Positions 42,700-63,854 of a stretch of DNA of 64,000 nt are shown here, piece by piece. Both the position numbers and the translations under genes were made by a program. How positions within the stretch are numbered: position 1 is the stretch's first letter; every line of letters begins with the position of its first letter. The stretch comes from Halosimplex litoreum (GTDB lineage Archaea; Halobacteriota; Halobacteria; Halobacteriales; Haloarculaceae): positions 1,611,836 through 1,675,835 of the forward strand of contig NZ_CP065856.1 in assembly GCF_016065055.1 (NCBI RefSeq), given 5' to 3'. Below the pieces are notes generated by a model, which saw nothing but the letters and a program-made list of their open reading frames with translations, was not told the DNA's origin and ran no database searches.

Positions 42700-43998
42700 A
42701 TGGTCCCCGATCCCGACCTCTCTCGCCGACAGTTCCTCCGGGCCGCCGTCGCCGTCGGCGGTGCCAGCGCCCTCGCGGCCTGCCGAGAGCGGACTGACGG
42801 CAGCGCCGTCCCCGCGGGCGACCCAGAGGCCAAGCCCGCGCGCCAGCACGCCTGGCGCGACCACGTTCCCCACGACGACAGCGGCAACTCCCTGCTTCCG
42901 GCGCATCAGGTTCTCCTGTACGTCGAGTTCGGCGGTGACGGCCCCCCGAGCGCGGACGCTCGCGAGACCCTGGAGGCCGCCCTCTCGACGATCGATCGAG
43001 CCTACGAGTGGAGCGCCGACGGCCTCCTCCACACCGTCGCCTACTCCCCCGCTTACTTCGACCGCTTCGACACCGCCCTTCCCCCCTCGTCGGTCGACCT
43101 CCCCGAACCGCGCGCGCTGTCGGATTTCGAAGACCCCACGTTCGACACCCAAGACGCCGTCGTCCACCTCGCGAGTAACCGCGCGGACGTGATCCTCGAA
43201 GCCGACGAGGCACTGACCGGCGACCGAGAGTCGGCAAACGGCGAACCCGTCGACGCGCGCCTGACCGACGTCGCGACCGTCGACTCGCGCCGCACCGGGT
43301 TCGTCGGCGCCGGTCTCCCCGCCGAACACCAGGACGCCGCGGGGATCCCCGACTCGAACCCCGTCCCCGAGGAGTCACCGCTGTTCATGGGTTTCAAAGC
43401 GGGCTTCGTCGGCAACCAGGCCACCGAAGACTACGTCACCGTCGACGAGGGACCGTTCGCCGGCGGAACCACGAAAGTGATCGCGAACCTCCGCCAACGA
43501 CTCGACGACTGGTACGGCGAGCAGGATTACCCCCAGCGAGTCGCCGAGCTGTTCAGCCCCGGCCACGCCGAGAACGACCTCGTCGACGGCGTCGGTTCGA
43601 ACCTCGGCGACGACAGCGGGATCGACCAGTTCCTCGACGACATCGAAGCGCAAGCGCGCGCCACCGGCCGCGTGGGCCACGCCCAGAAGGCCGCCCGCGC
43701 CAACCGCGACGACGAGGGCGACGTTCGCCTCCTGCGCCGCCACTTCGAGTCGACCGACGACATCGGCTCCGACCAGTCCGTCGCCAGCCTCCACTTCCCG
43801 TCGCTCCAGCGCCACATCTCCGAGTTCGAAGCCGTGCGAGAAGCGATGAACGGCACCGATATCACGGCTGCCACGCCGGCTGTCCGCCAACGCGTCAACA
43901 ACGGCATCCTCGAGTACATCTTCGTTCGACGCCGCGGGAACTTCCTCGTCCCCCCGCGACGCCACCGGGCGCTCCCGACACCCCAGCCCGGAGAGTAG
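42700..43998 (+). CDS. Tat-exported DyP-type-peroxidase-like lipoprotein (DUF7405-like)
   Basis: The 432-residue protein starts with a Tat signal (SRRQFLRAAVAVGG) and a lipobox Cys28. The C-terminal half follows the DyP peroxidase plan: VGHAQKAARANRDDEGDVRLLRR with candidate proximal heme His327, then HFPSLQRHISEFEAVREAM and a LVPPR end. The distal GxxDG motif appears as GFKAG (231-235), so the catalytic Asp is replaced by Ala. Heme binding is therefore plausible and peroxidase activity doubtful. ATG 42700 gives the correct Tat start. Confidence 0.75.
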   Translation: MVPDPDLSRRQFLRAAVAVGGASALAACRERTDGSAVPAGDPEAKPARQHAWRDHVPHDDSGNSLLPAHQVLLYVEFGGDGPPSADARETLEAALSTIDRAYEWSADGLLHTVAYSPAYFDRFDTALPPSSVDLPEPRALSDFEDPTFDTQDAVVHLASNRADVILEADEALTGDRESANGEPVDARLTDVATVDSRRTGFVGAGLPAEHQDAAGIPDSNPVPEESPLFMGFKAGFVGNQATEDYVTVDEGPFAGGTTKVIANLRQRLDDWYGEQDYPQRVAELFSPGHAENDLVDGVGSNLGDDSGIDQFLDDIEAQARATGRVGHAQKAARANRDDEGDVRLLRRHFESTDDIGSDQSVASLHFPSLQRHISEFEAVREAMNGTDITAATPAVRQRVNNGILEYIFVRRRGNFLVPPRRHRALPTPQPGE

Positions 43999-59325: not shown

Positions 59326-59443
59326 CTTTCGACGCTTCAGCGGCCCGTCGCCAGGCGTAGGCGTGGAAACCGGACGATAGCAGCGGCGCACGCTCCGGAC
59401 GAAAACCGGCTTGATCGGGATTGATCCGGTTTCGGGATTGTGG

Positions 59444-59453
59444 ATTTATATGG
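59444..59453 (+). promoter_or_regulatory. TATA box of the DUF7096-like gene
   Basis: ATTTATATGG lies ~27-35 bases before ATG 59480 and excludes the in-frame ATGs at 59411 and 59450 as starts. Confidence 0.65.
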
Positions 59454-59479
59454 TGAACGGGGAACAACGTGGGAGCGAG

Positions 59480-60655
59480 ATGGCCGAAACGTCACCCGTC
59501 GTCGCGGTGGTGCTCGTGGCGGTAGCGGCGGTCGGCGCGGTGCCGGTCGCCGCGCTGGCCGGTGCCGGCGCCCCGGCACAGGGGACCGCGACGGACGGTG
59601 TCGCAGCGAACGAGAACGCGAACGGATCGCTGGCGCCCGGCGAACGCTTCGCCGGTGTGGTCGGCGTGCAACAGGCCGACGTGCAGGGCGAGATCGAGGC
59701 GCGGACGTTCGGTCAGCGCGTGGCCGCCGCGGCGTCGAACGGTTCGGTCGCCGGCGTCGTCGCCACCGAGGTCACGGACCTGGAGGGGCGCCTCGGCGAA
59801 CTCGACGGCGAGATCGACGAGCTGGAGCGGGCCCGCGAGAACGGCACCGTGAGCGAGGGCGCGTACCGCGCTCGCCTCGCGCAGTTACACGCGAGACAGC
59901 GCGCAGTCGAGCGGCGCCTCGACCAGACGGCCGCCGTGGCTCGGGGTCTCCCCGCCGACGATCTCGAAGCCAGGGGCGTCAACGTGACCGCGATCCGGAC
60001 GCTCAGGTCGCAGGCCAGCGAGCTCACCGGGCCAGAGGTCGCCGAGATCGCGCGGGGCATCGCCGGCGAGGGCGCCGGCAGGGGTGTGGGCGGCCCGCCC
60101 GCGTTCGTCGCGAACCGAACCGGTCCGCCTGAAGACCGGGGGAACGGCAACGGCCCGCCCGCTGACGCCGGGCCCGGCAACGACACCGGCCCACCGGCGG
60201 ATAGAGGTCCCGACGACGACACCGGACCGCCCGAGGACGCCGGATCGAACGACGAGGCAGGTTCGCCCGAGGATGCTGGGTCGAACGACGACACCGGACC
60301 GCCCGAGGACGCCGGGTCGAACGACGACACCGACTCACCGGGAGCTACCGGGTCAGACGACGGAACCGGCCCACCGGAGGGAGACAGGTCCGGTAACGCA
60401 ACGAACGGCAACGCCTCCGAGGGTCGCGGGAACGGAGCGAATCCCGAGGACGACGCCGGTGACGATGCGGGCGACGGCGGGAACGGCGACGATGCGAGCG
60501 AGCGCGGCGAGAGCGAAGGGAACGAGGCGGACGAGAGCGACGACGATGCGGACAGCGGTGGCGATACGGGCGATGACGACGGCGGTGATGGGGCCGGCGC
60601 CGGCGGAGCAGCCAGTCCGAACGGTGAGAGCGACGATGCGAGCGAGCGTGGGTGA
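59480..60655 (+). CDS. Secreted DUF7096-like protein with low-complexity tail
   Basis: The 391-residue protein has a hydrophobic N-terminal signal (VVAVVLVAVAAVGAVPVAALAG), a mature region with ERFAGVVGVQQADVQGEIEARTFG, a coiled coil (about 95-150; LEGRLGELDGEIDELERARENG), and a long acidic Gly/Asp/Pro tail with four ~12-residue repeats of the GPPEDAGSND type (about 215-285). It matches the haloarchaeal DUF7096 plan. It is presumed to be at the cell surface; function unknown. Confidence 0.8.
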   Translation: MAETSPVVAVVLVAVAAVGAVPVAALAGAGAPAQGTATDGVAANENANGSLAPGERFAGVVGVQQADVQGEIEARTFGQRVAAAASNGSVAGVVATEVTDLEGRLGELDGEIDELERARENGTVSEGAYRARLAQLHARQRAVERRLDQTAAVARGLPADDLEARGVNVTAIRTLRSQASELTGPEVAEIARGIAGEGAGRGVGGPPAFVANRTGPPEDRGNGNGPPADAGPGNDTGPPADRGPDDDTGPPEDAGSNDEAGSPEDAGSNDDTGPPEDAGSNDDTDSPGATGSDDGTGPPEGDRSGNATNGNASEGRGNGANPEDDAGDDAGDGGNGDDASERGESEGNEADESDDDADSGGDTGDDDGGDGAGAGGAASPNGESDDASERG

Positions 60656-61057
60656 GAGACGGGTCACACGGACCTGCCGTCGGACGAGCGAGTGGCCGGT
60701 CCCCGTTCGGTGCGGTCCGGGTCCGTTTCCGTGTCGTCGTGTGACACGCTAACAGAGCGTAGCGGGCCGCTCGGCGCCGGTTCGGAAGCTTTTAGTAGCG
60801 AGTTGTCGGTAGTAGCAGGTACATGGCTCCGACCCGCGCTCACGGCACGCAGGCCGCGACGAGTCGCGGGTCCGCCGACCGACTTTTCGCGCGTCGGACG
60901 GCGGCGCCGGCAGGCGTCGACGCCCGACGACCGCGGCGACGACGACCGGGCCGTTAGGCCCGAAACTACCTCTCCCATCGTCGCCACGTCTCGTTTCCGA
61001 CTCCCGCCACCGTCGGGTTCCGGGCGGACATCTCACCCGACAGTCACCACACGACAC
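60656..61057 (+). promoter_or_regulatory. Long argG leader with Arg-rich mini-ORF
   Basis: A TATA-like CTTTTAGTAG box (about 60788-60798) would start a message about 240 bases upstream of argG; no comparable box lies closer to the argG ATG. A mini-ORF (60823-60957, ATG to TAG, 44 residues) begins just after the predicted start site and ends RRPRRRRPGR, with 12 arginines in all, many encoded CGA. Overlapping its end is CGGGCC-GTTA-GGCCCG (60947-60962), competing with GGCGACGA/TCGTCGCC (60935-60942/60978-60985). This resembles an attenuator, but there is no proof. Confidence 0.5.
60823..60957 (+). CDS. Candidate arginine-rich leader peptide
   Basis: The 44-residue ORF has an unusually basic composition for a halophile (12 Arg, mostly in the last third) and a near-leaderless ATG about 33 bases after the centre of the TATA box. 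Codons at the end run CGA CGA CCG CGG CGA CGA CGA. It may sense arginyl-tRNA for the argGH operon. GC-rich non-coding sequence also yields Arg-rich frames, so chance is not excluded. Confidence 0.4.
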   Translation: MAPTRAHGTQAATSRGSADRLFARRTAAPAGVDARRPRRRRPGR

Positions 61058-62317
61058 ATGACATCCGACCCATCCGGCACCGTCGCGCTCGCCTTCTCCG
61101 GCGGGCTCGACACGACAGTCTGCGTCCCGCTCATCAAGGAAGAGTACGGCTACGACGACGTCATCGGCGTCACCGTCGACGTCGGCCAGCCCGCCAAAGA
61201 GTTCGACGAGGCCGAGGAGACGGCCGAGGAGCTCGGGCTCGACCACTACGTCGTCGACGCCAAAGAGGAGTTCGCCGATCTCTGTCTCCAGTCGGTCAAA
61301 GCCAACGGCACCTACCAGGGCTACCCGCTGGGCACCGCGCTCGCGCGCCCGGTCATCGCAAACGCCATCCTCGAAGTCGCCGAGGAACAGGGCTGTAGCG
61401 CTCTCGCCCACGGCTGCACGGGGAAAGGCAACGACCAGCTCCGCTTCGAGGCGGTCTGGCGCGCCTCGGACCTGGACGTGCTCGCGCCCGTGCGCGAACT
61501 CGGCCTGACTCGCGAGTGGGAGAACGAGTACGCCGCCGAAAAGGGCCTGCCTGTCGAGGGCGGCGACGGCGGCCGCTGGAGCATCGACACCAACCTCTGG
61601 AGCCGCTCGGTCGAGGGCTCCGAACTCGAAGACCCCGCACACGTTCCGGGCGAGGAGATCTACGACTGGACCCAGGCACCGGGGTCGGCGGAACCGGAGA
61701 CGGTCGAGATCGAGTTCGAGCAGGGCGAGGTCGTCGCCGTCGACGGCCAGTCCCAGGACGCGGTCTCGCTCGTCGAGGACCTCAACGAGCGCGCTGGCAA
61801 GCACGGCGTCGGTCGCACGGACACGATGGAGGACCGTATGCTCGGGCTCAAAGTCAGGGAGAACTACGAGCACCCCGCGGCGACGGTGCTGCTGACGGCC
61901 CACGAGGCGCTCGAATCGCTCGTGCTGACCCAGGAGGAGCGCTCGTTCAAGACGGGGATCGACCAGCGCTGGGCCGAGAAGGGCTACGAGGGCCTGGTCG
62001 ACGCGCCGCTGACGAAGGCGCTGGAAGGGTTCATCGAGCAGACCCAGACCAAAGTCACCGGGACCGTCACGGTCAAGCTCGACGGCGGGCAGGCCCGCGC
62101 GGTCGGTCGCGAGAGCGAGTACGCAGTCTACAGCGAGTCGGCGGCCTCGTTCAACGAGGAGGCCGTCACCGACGACATCGAACAGGACGACGCGACGGGC
62201 GTCGCGAAGTACCACGGCTTCCAGTCCCGGTTGGCCAACCGCGTCGCCGAGAACGTCGCGGCCAAGCAGGCCGAGGCCGCCACCGACGGCGGCGAAGAGA
62301 CAGACACGGACGAGTAA
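61058..62317 (+). CDS. argG: Argininosuccinate synthase
   Basis: The 419-residue enzyme joins citrulline and aspartate using ATP in arginine synthesis. It has the P-loop-like AFSGGLDTTVC at about 11-21, YQGYPLGTALARPVIA, the HGCTGKGNDQLRFE motif and a SIDTNLWSRSVEGSELED region. The acidic C-terminal tail is short. ATG 61058 matches the family; the frame upstream crosses the leader and is not coding. argH begins 2 bases after the stop. Confidence 0.96.
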   Translation: MTSDPSGTVALAFSGGLDTTVCVPLIKEEYGYDDVIGVTVDVGQPAKEFDEAEETAEELGLDHYVVDAKEEFADLCLQSVKANGTYQGYPLGTALARPVIANAILEVAEEQGCSALAHGCTGKGNDQLRFEAVWRASDLDVLAPVRELGLTREWENEYAAEKGLPVEGGDGGRWSIDTNLWSRSVEGSELEDPAHVPGEEIYDWTQAPGSAEPETVEIEFEQGEVVAVDGQSQDAVSLVEDLNERAGKHGVGRTDTMEDRMLGLKVRENYEHPAATVLLTAHEALESLVLTQEERSFKTGIDQRWAEKGYEGLVDAPLTKALEGFIEQTQTKVTGTVTVKLDGGQARAVGRESEYAVYSESAASFNEEAVTDDIEQDDATGVAKYHGFQSRLANRVAENVAAKQAEAATDGGEETDTDE

Positions 62318-62318
62318 G

Positions 62319-63854
62319 ATGACCGACGGCGAGGACACCCCCGACGCGGGCGAGGCGGCCGAAGCGAGCGGCGCGGACGGCACCGTCGACACCGCCACCG
62401 GCGGGACCGCGATCCGCCGGGATCGGTTCTCGGGTGGCCCCGCACGCGGGTTCATGTCCTCGCTGGCCGCCGACGAGCGCATCTTCGGGGCGGACCTGCA
62501 GGTCGACCGCGCCCACACGGTGATGCTGGCAGAACAGGACATCGTCGGTGACGACGATGCGGCCGCGATCCTATCGGCGCTCGACGACGTGGAAGCGGCG
62601 GGCCACGGCGAGTTGCCCGACGCCGAGGACGTACACGAGGCCATCGAGACCGCGGTCATCGGACGTGTCGGCCTCGAGGGTGGGCGCATGCACACTGCGC
62701 GCTCGCGCAACGACGAGGTGGCGACCTGTATCCGGTATCGTCTGCGTTCGGACCTCTTCGAGGCGCTGGAGACCGTGGTCGGGGCACGCGAGCAGTTGCT
62801 CGACGCCGCGGCCGAGCACACCGAGACGCTGCTGCCAGGGTTCACGCACCTGCAGTACGCCCAGCCAGTGACGGTGGCTCACTGGGTCCTCTCCTACGAG
62901 GGACCACTCGCGCGTGACACGGAACGGCTGCTCGCGGCGTTCGATACGACGAACCGGTCGCCGCTGGGCGCGGCGGCGTTCGCGGGCACGCCCTTCGACG
63001 TGGATCGGGCGCGCACGGCCGAACTGCTGGGCTTCGACGGCACCGTCGCGAACTCGATGGACGCCACGTCTTCGCGGGATTTCCTCGTCGAAACGACGAG
63101 CGCCCTGACGACGCTGGCGACGACGCTCTCGGGGCTCGCGGAGGATCTGGTGGTGTACAGCGGTCGCGACTACCTGGAGATCAGCGACGACTACGCCTCC
63201 ACGTCGTCGATCATGCCCCAGAAGAAGAATCCGGACACGCTGGAGATCGTCCGCGCGACCGCCGGGGAAGCGCAGGGCGCGCTCCAGCGGTTGCTGACGA
63301 CGCTGAAGGGGCTGCCCCGCTCGTACAACATCGACCTTCAGGAGGCGACGCCGCCGGCGTGGACCGCCGTCGACTCGGTGCCGCCCGCGCTGGAGGTCGC
63401 CACGGGCGCGCTGACGACCGCCGAGTGGCACGAGGACGTGCTGGCGGGGGAAGCCGCCGCCGGGTTCTCGACGGCGACCGGCGTGGCGGACCGGCTGGCG
63501 ATGGCGGGCGTCCCCTTCCGGACGGCCCACGAAGTCGTGGCGTCGGTGGCCGAGGACCTCGATCCCGGGCAGAACGCGCCGGCGATCGACGAGCTGGAGG
63601 CCGCCGCCGAGGAAGTCCTGGGCGAGCCGCTGACGGCGTACGTCGACCGAGAGACGCTGGAATCGACGCTCGACCCGGTCGAGAGCGTGGCGATGCGCGA
63701 CTCGCCGGGTGGACCGGCGCCCGAGGCGGTCGCCGCGCAGATCGACGCGGCCCGCGAACGCCTCGCGACCGACGAGGGCGCGATCGCCGAGCGCAGCGAC
63801 GTGGTCGCGACGGGGCTCGACGAGCTCGAATCGGAGGTGGCCGACCGTGTCTGA
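62319..63854 (+). CDS. argH: Argininosuccinate lyase
   Basis: The 511-residue fumarase/aspartase-fold enzyme splits argininosuccinate to arginine and fumarate. It has the HTARSRNDEVAT motif, THLQYAQPVTVAHW, and the family signature SSIMPQKKNP. A ~30-residue acidic, Ala/Gly-rich extension precedes the core. The start overlaps closely with argG (one intervening base, TAAGATG), giving translational coupling. An AACATAAAACTG box at about 63935-63946 suggests a further promoter at the window edge, probably for the next arginine/lysine gene, which is not visible. Confidence 0.95.
   Translation: MTDGEDTPDAGEAAEASGADGTVDTATGGTAIRRDRFSGGPARGFMSSLAADERIFGADLQVDRAHTVMLAEQDIVGDDDAAAILSALDDVEAAGHGELPDAEDVHEAIETAVIGRVGLEGGRMHTARSRNDEVATCIRYRLRSDLFEALETVVGAREQLLDAAAEHTETLLPGFTHLQYAQPVTVAHWVLSYEGPLARDTERLLAAFDTTNRSPLGAAAFAGTPFDVDRARTAELLGFDGTVANSMDATSSRDFLVETTSALTTLATTLSGLAEDLVVYSGRDYLEISDDYASTSSIMPQKKNPDTLEIVRATAGEAQGALQRLLTTLKGLPRSYNIDLQEATPPAWTAVDSVPPALEVATGALTTAEWHEDVLAGEAAAGFSTATGVADRLAMAGVPFRTAHEVVASVAEDLDPGQNAPAIDELEAAAEEVLGEPLTAYVDRETLESTLDPVESVAMRDSPGGPAPEAVAAQIDAARERLATDEGAIAERSDVVATGLDELESEVADRV

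Follow-up and report, generated by a model that had tools for sequence, protein, structure and literature searches.

The window, the whole stretch of 64,000 nucleotides of the Halosimplex genome that was analyzed, carries argG and, directly downstream, argH. An argX-like gene (TIGR02144) follows argGH on the same strand beyond the window. argG is preceded by a leader with a TATA box, a short upstream open reading frame (uORF) ending in a run of arginine codons, two hairpins, and a C-rich stretch (Table 1). A preliminary description of this DNA had proposed an arginine attenuator here, and its coordinates for the TATA box, the 44-codon ORF, and both pairings were all found to be correct. Upstream of the leader, positions 59411-60655 hold a 414-codon ORF, the C-terminal half of which is a low-complexity repeat region rich in Gly, Asp, Pro, and Asn.

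Table 1 Features of the argG leader and related loci. Positions are those of the window unless given for contig C1.
Feature	Position	Strand	Basis
Window, Halosimplex genome	C1 1611836-1675835		
Leader promoter: BRE-like CGGAAG and TATA box TTTTAGTA (60790-60797)	60781-60798	+	Sequence; box survey of 67 leaders
Predicted transcription start; uORF message leaderless or nearly so	60815-60823	+	Inferred from TATA spacing
uORF, 44 codons, ATG start, MAPTRAHGTQAATSRGSADRLFARRTAAPAGVDARRPRRRRPGR then stop	60823-60957	+	Hairpin-stop frame; conservation
Hairpin 1 inside uORF, GACCCGCG (60831-60838) / CGCGGGTC (60865-60872)	60831-60872	+	Fold of window leader
Terminal arginine run CGA CGA CCG CGG CGA CGA CGA	60925-60945	+	Residues R35-R41
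Outer stem around hairpin 2, GGCGACGA (60935-60942) / TCGTCGCC (60978-60985)	60935-60985	+	Minimum-energy fold with hairpin 2
Hairpin 2, CGGGCC-GTTA-GGCCCG, enclosing stop TAG (60955-60957)	60947-60962	+	Covariation
Unstructured sequence beyond the stop, rich in C and poor in G; premature termination proposed here	60963-61022	+	Inference
Possible H-type pseudoknot, S1 61003-61008/61022-61027, S2 61012-61017/61036-61041	61003-61041	+	
argG, argininosuccinate synthase, presumed regulated gene	61058-62317	+	
argH, argininosuccinate lyase	62319-63854	+	
ilvB leader, own locus (L195/L230)	C1:33728-35600	-	Relatives L191-L209
valS leader (L231), MTGPFDGIDARVANEPRLSVAVAVRVGAP then stop, with GTA codons and stop hairpin	C1:115186-115201	+	Hairpin pattern
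trpS leaders: own locus L264; L257-L269; L287, L288, and L290 on Haloferax and Natronorubrum plasmids			

The uORF starts 33 nt after its TATA box. Of the 67 leaders surveyed, nearly all have a TATA-like box whose distance to the uORF start is 29-34 nt. The mean score of these boxes was 6.8 compared with a window mean of 3.6, and the same score was reached at 3% of random positions. No TATA-like box was found 18-36 nt before argG in Halosimplex. This agrees with the earlier claim that argG has no close promoter, the uORF start having one, and argG is thus most simply read from the upstream promoter. The resulting argG leader is about 235 nt long in Halosimplex, with about 100 nt between the uORF stop and the argG start. 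Natrialbaceae and Haloferacaceae have kept the upstream leader and have an additional TATA box immediately ahead of argG (loci L012-L017 without L013, L021, L024, L026, L030-L036, and L043); the distance between the hairpin and argG is longer there. The leader in these two families therefore cannot control all argG transcripts. Decayed leaders occur among the second-TATA families: three Natronorubrum species have lost the common frame of Arg run and stop, and Halolamina has no in-frame ATG. Decay beside a second promoter is consistent with a leader that controls the transcripts of the upstream promoter.

The leader can be aligned along its length among Halosimplex species. The shared plan consists of a TATA box, about 30 nt, a short ORF with an internal hairpin, an Arg run, a stop hairpin, a C-rich stretch, and argG. 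The survey covered 68 non-redundant argG upstream regions and 20 further order-level genomes, most of the 20 being positive, and the plan was found in about 80 haloarchaeal argG upstream regions. An Arg-rich ORF before argG in relatives, to which the preliminary description had pointed, was found without exception among close relatives whose flanks are conserved, and in nearly every haloarchaeal family of the sample. The leader is missing from the three most divergent order-level families examined (f2, f9, and f11; loci L108, L110, L112, L117, and L121).

A covariance model of the Arg run and the hairpin was searched against genomes. In the 4.16-Mb genome of the organism itself it gave a single significant match at 78 bits, the next scoring 23.5, and no second leader copy rose above background in this search. 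Within the class, 148 of 194 genomes were matched at E<=0.01, with one match per genome and one exception. Wherever a match was compared with a known argG position, it was located immediately ahead of the gene and on its strand, and several genomes missed by the model still show the leader by eye. The genomes outside the class within a 120-genome sample of the phylum gave no match to the model. Rfam returned only a chance match (E 0.93) on the other strand inside argG, and a plasmid search with argG returned bacterial or distant matches only.

Within the window, an Arg-rich end with a stop hairpin was found in 1 of 81 plus-strand and 1 of 100 minus-strand ATG-initiated ORFs of 20-60 codons. 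In a single genome the arrangement is thus only mildly unusual, and it is the conservation that carries the case. The minus-strand ORF (43570-43689 on the reverse complement of the window) is probably a chance occurrence. The leader arrangement before argG is confirmed as real and far beyond chance.

Translation of the uORF was examined by a frame test, in which only the TATA box determined the choice of start and the hairpin loop that of the stop, with the frame ignored. In 56 of 65 leaders, a single open frame led from the ATG to the hairpin stop, against an expectation of about one third, although the species are related and the nominal probability of this count should not be taken literally. 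These leaders have 17 distinct lengths of 20-50 codons. Judged by the conserved frame and the TATA-positioned start, translation of the uORF is shown indirectly. A conserved, translatable uORF with its own promoter could also encode a functional small basic protein. Both the length (20-50 codons) and the sequence are widely variable, however, the constrained parts are hairpin 1 and the Arg run, and the uORF always adjoins argG. A protein function is therefore regarded as extremely unlikely.

The uORF ends with RRPRRRRPGR, where the run is followed by CCG GGC CGT and the stop TAG. The run R35-R41 is as described earlier; the statement that the last third of the ORF is nearly all arginine was exaggerated, since Arg accounts for about 7 of the final 12 residues. 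Among the leaders, Arg occupies codon -1 in 76 of 81 (94%) and codon -2 in 68 of 81 (84%). Arg makes up nearly half of the residues in the ten codons before the hairpin, and 220 of these 313 Arg codons (70%) are CGA. The share of CGA among Arg codons is 1.1% (8/731) in argG coding sequences and 21% in the N-terminal part of the same uORFs. CGA and CGG together account for 91% of the Arg codons in the terminal run vs 11% in argG. This indicates that the terminal run is read by minor isoacceptors, and not by the tRNA for the common CGC and CGT codons.

The C-terminal residues are less uniform. Many families end with RRPG(R/L) directly before the stop, and RRPGSS, RRAL, RRPAP, RRADF, or RPRPR is found elsewhere. 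The fungal arginine attenuator peptide (the arg-2/CPA1 uORF) is a conserved peptide that causes arrest at high arginine, and it likewise lies in a uORF ahead of an arginine gene. By analogy, RRPGR in the ribosome tunnel could sense free arginine and stall the ribosome when arginine is high, and the widespread RRPG(R/L) ending agrees with this. In contrast to the fungal peptide, the haloarchaeal leaders conserve codons and not one peptide: the C-terminus varies between families while the rare codon is kept, and the sister leaders described below keep GTA, Trp, or Phe codons. Membership in the fungal class was rejected on these grounds, and arrest by the nascent peptide is considered very improbable.

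Hairpin 1 lies within the uORF, and the uORF bodies are more stably folded than their dinucleotide shuffles (mean z -1.2, 67 species). Hairpin 2 overlaps the stop codon, as first described, and encloses it. The stop is located within 5 codons of the start of the hairpin 2 stem in 62 of 68 leaders. Covariation in hairpin 2 was found at pair 3 (GC/CG), pair 4 (CG/GC), and pair 5 (CG/TA), with a full arm swap in one locus (L115). For this count the MAFFT alignment was re-anchored on the stems; the alignment as produced underestimates stem covariation because the stems of different lineages are mutually shifted, and RNAalifold predicted nothing from it. The outer stem had been taken as mutually exclusive with hairpin 2. 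The outer pairing encloses hairpin 2 and both are present in the minimum-energy fold, so the stems are nested, and a terminator/antiterminator pair of exclusive stems was rejected for this leader. The 3' partner of the outer stem, TCGTCGCC, is not a general feature of leaders beyond Halosimplex.

The sequences of hairpin 2 and of the flanking CGACGACC are strongly conserved, and some lineages have both although the frame is lost. This would agree with a conserved RNA or DNA signal, such as a protein-binding hairpin, a transcript end, or a small RNA, in which the Arg codons are a by-product of the CGACGACC motif. However, the Arg codons alternate A and G at the third position without loss of Arg (CGGCGGCGACGGCGACGG in Natronorubrum), and the uORF lengths differ by multiples of three. 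The leaders for other amino acids have other codons with the same hairpin design, and the absence of an Rfam match also argues against such a signal. We consider this explanation very unlikely.

The sequence after hairpin 2 is biased toward C over G. The skew is 0.42 in the leader described here, a value reached by 0.4% of 60-nt windows, and it is positive in all 68 species (range 0.11-0.54). No U-tract terminator was found; an ACTAC/C-rich sequence without a T-run follows hairpin 2. No conserved competing terminator/antiterminator structure was found in the argG leaders. Across species, the segment from hairpin 2 to argG is not more stably folded than its shuffles (mean z -0.2), and its length varies from about 80 to 170 nt. 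The possible pseudoknot before argG was seen in 22 sequences from part of the Haloarculaceae only, with few compensatory changes in S2 (L005 and L081), and is a weak candidate for a lineage-limited element.

These features bear on the output of the leader. The main rival to termination is that the same sensor acts on argG translation or mRNA stability, either by changing re-initiation or by exposing the leader to cleavage. The long argG leader without a TATA box of its own, a start codon about 100 nt past the uORF stop in Halosimplex, the lack of a U-tract, and the pseudoknot-like element just before argG in part of the family are in line with such an output. The Arg codons of the Salmonella speF leader ORF, furthermore, act on RNA decay and on access to the ribosome site (PMC6386406). 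The lack of excess folding and the variable distance between the hairpin and argG, on the other side, do not favor tight coupling or a fixed switch structure. An output through translation or stability is held to be a serious possibility that falls short of an even chance.

Leaders of similar design were found before other genes. Upstream scans of carA, trpC, hisG, and ilvB were begun as controls. No conserved leaderless uORF was found upstream of carA, trpC, or hisG. Conserved leaderless uORFs were found before ilvB in 16 of 18 genomes, unfiltered for residues, and most of them end with IVGA, IIVG, or similar. The ilvB uORF ends as ATY GTA GGG GCN NNN TAG CCCC, which forms a hairpin GGGGC-N-TAGCCCC with the stop at the 3' arm. 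The Val codon beside the hairpin is GTA in 15 of 15, and GTA makes up 0.7% of ilvB Val codons. The ilvB-type hairpin pattern alone occurs at three places in the organism's own genome, namely the ilvB leader, a further leader with the product MTGPFDGIDARVANEPRLSVAVAVRVGAP, and one seemingly unrelated place. The gene after the MTGPFDGIDARVANEPRLSVAVAVRVGAP leader reads as a valyl-tRNA synthetase (valS) by its sequence motifs. The valS leader, seen in one genome only, has a TATA box and lies 170 nt before the gene.

The pheS and trpS upstream regions were examined because mapped transcripts of Haloferax volcanii are reported to carry a 23-aa uORF ahead of trpS and a 26-aa uORF ahead of pheS (PMC4983044). 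One of two trpS types is preceded by leaderless uORFs of 20-27 codons with WRW or WPW, in 13 of 13 of a residue-filtered list; WRW was present in 5 of 5 trpS uORFs found without the residue filter. The trpS uORF of Haloferax mediterranei and H. larsenii has 23 aa with CWRW, and a strong hairpin (GTCCACTTCC...GGAAGTGGAC) in the Haloferax plasmid leaders has the Trp codons in its loop. The trpS stop hairpin CGGGCCTAACCCG is found in most of Halosimplex. uORFs ending with a GFGFFF-type sequence precede pheS in most haloarchaea (own locus L242; others L233-L256), with 25-29 aa in most families outside Halosimplex, and several pheS genes have a moderate TATA box of their own.

The stop hairpin is clear for argG, ilvB, and valS and less clear for pheS. 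argG in Halosimplex, ilvB, and trpS share an ORF of 19-50 codons with a TATA box some 30 nt ahead of it and a box-less gene behind it, and the valS leader also has its box. The table of residues against genes is diagonal, with R for argG, V/I for ilvB, W for trpS, and F for pheS; only uORFs with 2 or more cognate residues entered the pheS and trpS lists, and the table is partly shaped by this choice. On sequence grounds, sister leaders for other amino acids appear to precede at least four other genes. Such cognate specificity at several independent genes is the mark expected of leader peptides that sense tRNA charging.

The preliminary idea of leader-peptide regulation of argGH is supported by the sequence comparisons. 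The conserved frame, the preference for CGA, the one match per genome at argG, and the ilvB, valS, trpS, and pheS leaders all fit this control. The classical terminator/antiterminator form of an attenuator was not borne out, given the nested stems, the lack of excess downstream folding, and the lack of a U-tract. Control of argGH by a leader-peptide arginine sensor that reads codons is accordingly a reading that we hold with high, though not full, confidence. For transcription termination as the output of this sensor, the chances appear about even.

In the proposed mechanism, RNA polymerase would start past the TATA box at about 60790 and produce a message with its 5' end at or near the uORF start. 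A ribosome would read the uORF while the leader RNA is still being made. When charged Arg-tRNA is available, especially the CGA/CGG isoacceptors, the ribosome would pass the Arg run, stop within hairpin 2, and leave. Hairpin 2 could then re-form, the C-rich RNA would be bare, and transcription would end before argG. Termination would probably be helped by archaeal FttA/aCPSF1, which is the least certain step; a competition between this factor and ribosomes is on record as a proposal (PMC11616081). A shortage of charged Arg-tRNA would stall the ribosome on the last CGA codons, where by its position it should mask the 5' arm of hairpin 2. This would block the off-state and allow argGH to be expressed. 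Because stalling of the ribosome uncouples RNA polymerase as well, it is not obvious in which direction termination would be affected.

The same logic may extend to a general haloarchaeal system. Cognate leaderless uORFs, at least for Arg, Ile-Val, Val, Trp, and Phe, would read tRNA charging and switch genes via translation-coupled, factor-dependent termination. The tRNAs read would be those for rare codons in the case of Arg and Val, and the targets would be biosynthetic and tRNA-synthetase genes. We judge this joint proposal slightly more probable than its opposite.

Leader-peptide attenuation is a textbook bacterial mechanism. Like the bacterial attenuators of trp, his, thr, ilv, and pheST, the haloarchaeal leaders have a short ORF with cognate codons before biosynthetic or tRNA-synthetase genes, a stop codon overlapping RNA structure, a hairpin inside the leader ORF, and a single cis-acting copy. 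The argG leader shares with them a translatable ORF with a run of codons for the amino acid of the pathway. Unlike them, the haloarchaeal leaders are archaeal and leaderless with no Shine-Dalgarno, their terminal hairpin has no U-tract and no conserved terminator/antiterminator alternative, and the cognate codons of argG, ilvB, and valS stand directly against the stop hairpin. Because competing stems and a U-tract terminator are absent, the argG leader is not filed as a classical bacterial attenuator. In E. coli, free Trp bound in the ribosome causes TnaC to stall. The tna leader resembles the proposed argG mechanism in that a ribosome stalled at the end of the leader ORF stands beside an unstructured region for a termination factor, and it differs in that the argG signal appears to be codon-based. 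To our knowledge, Archaea have no Rho.

By analogy, the argG leader would most resemble the Salmonella speF leader, the orf34 of which has two consecutive Arg codons and is Rho-dependent (PMC6386406). In both, with the argG side being proposed, Arg codons of a leader ORF sense arginine, termination depends on a factor, and a hairpin lies near the ORF stop. The speF leader controls ornithine decarboxylase through two tandem Arg codons in the middle of the ORF (PMC6386406), whereas the ORF of the argG leader closes with a long run of CGR codons and belongs to arginine biosynthesis. The leaders are also comparable to the Haloferax volcanii uORFs listed for long 5'-UTRs (Babski et al. 2016, PMC4983044), where the pheS and trpS leader lengths match. 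argG is not listed in that table of 16 such uORFs, and the section on them describes no cognate codons or regulatory role. The literature searched contained no description of a cognate amino-acid leader peptide in Archaea; subscription papers lay mostly outside this coverage, so priority is not certain.

If true, the proposal would mean that ribosome-mediated attenuation exists in Archaea and is built without U-tract terminators or competing stems. A working system of this kind would imply a coupling between archaeal ribosomes and RNA polymerase that is tight enough for the position of the ribosome to decide gene output. Genetically tractable haloarchaea would then allow direct tests of functional coupling between transcription and translation and of FttA-type quality control in Archaea. 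Such a system would further provide a regulatory explanation for some long 5'-UTRs in organisms that have numerous leaderless messages, and a use for rare codons such as CGA and GTA in haloarchaeal genomes.
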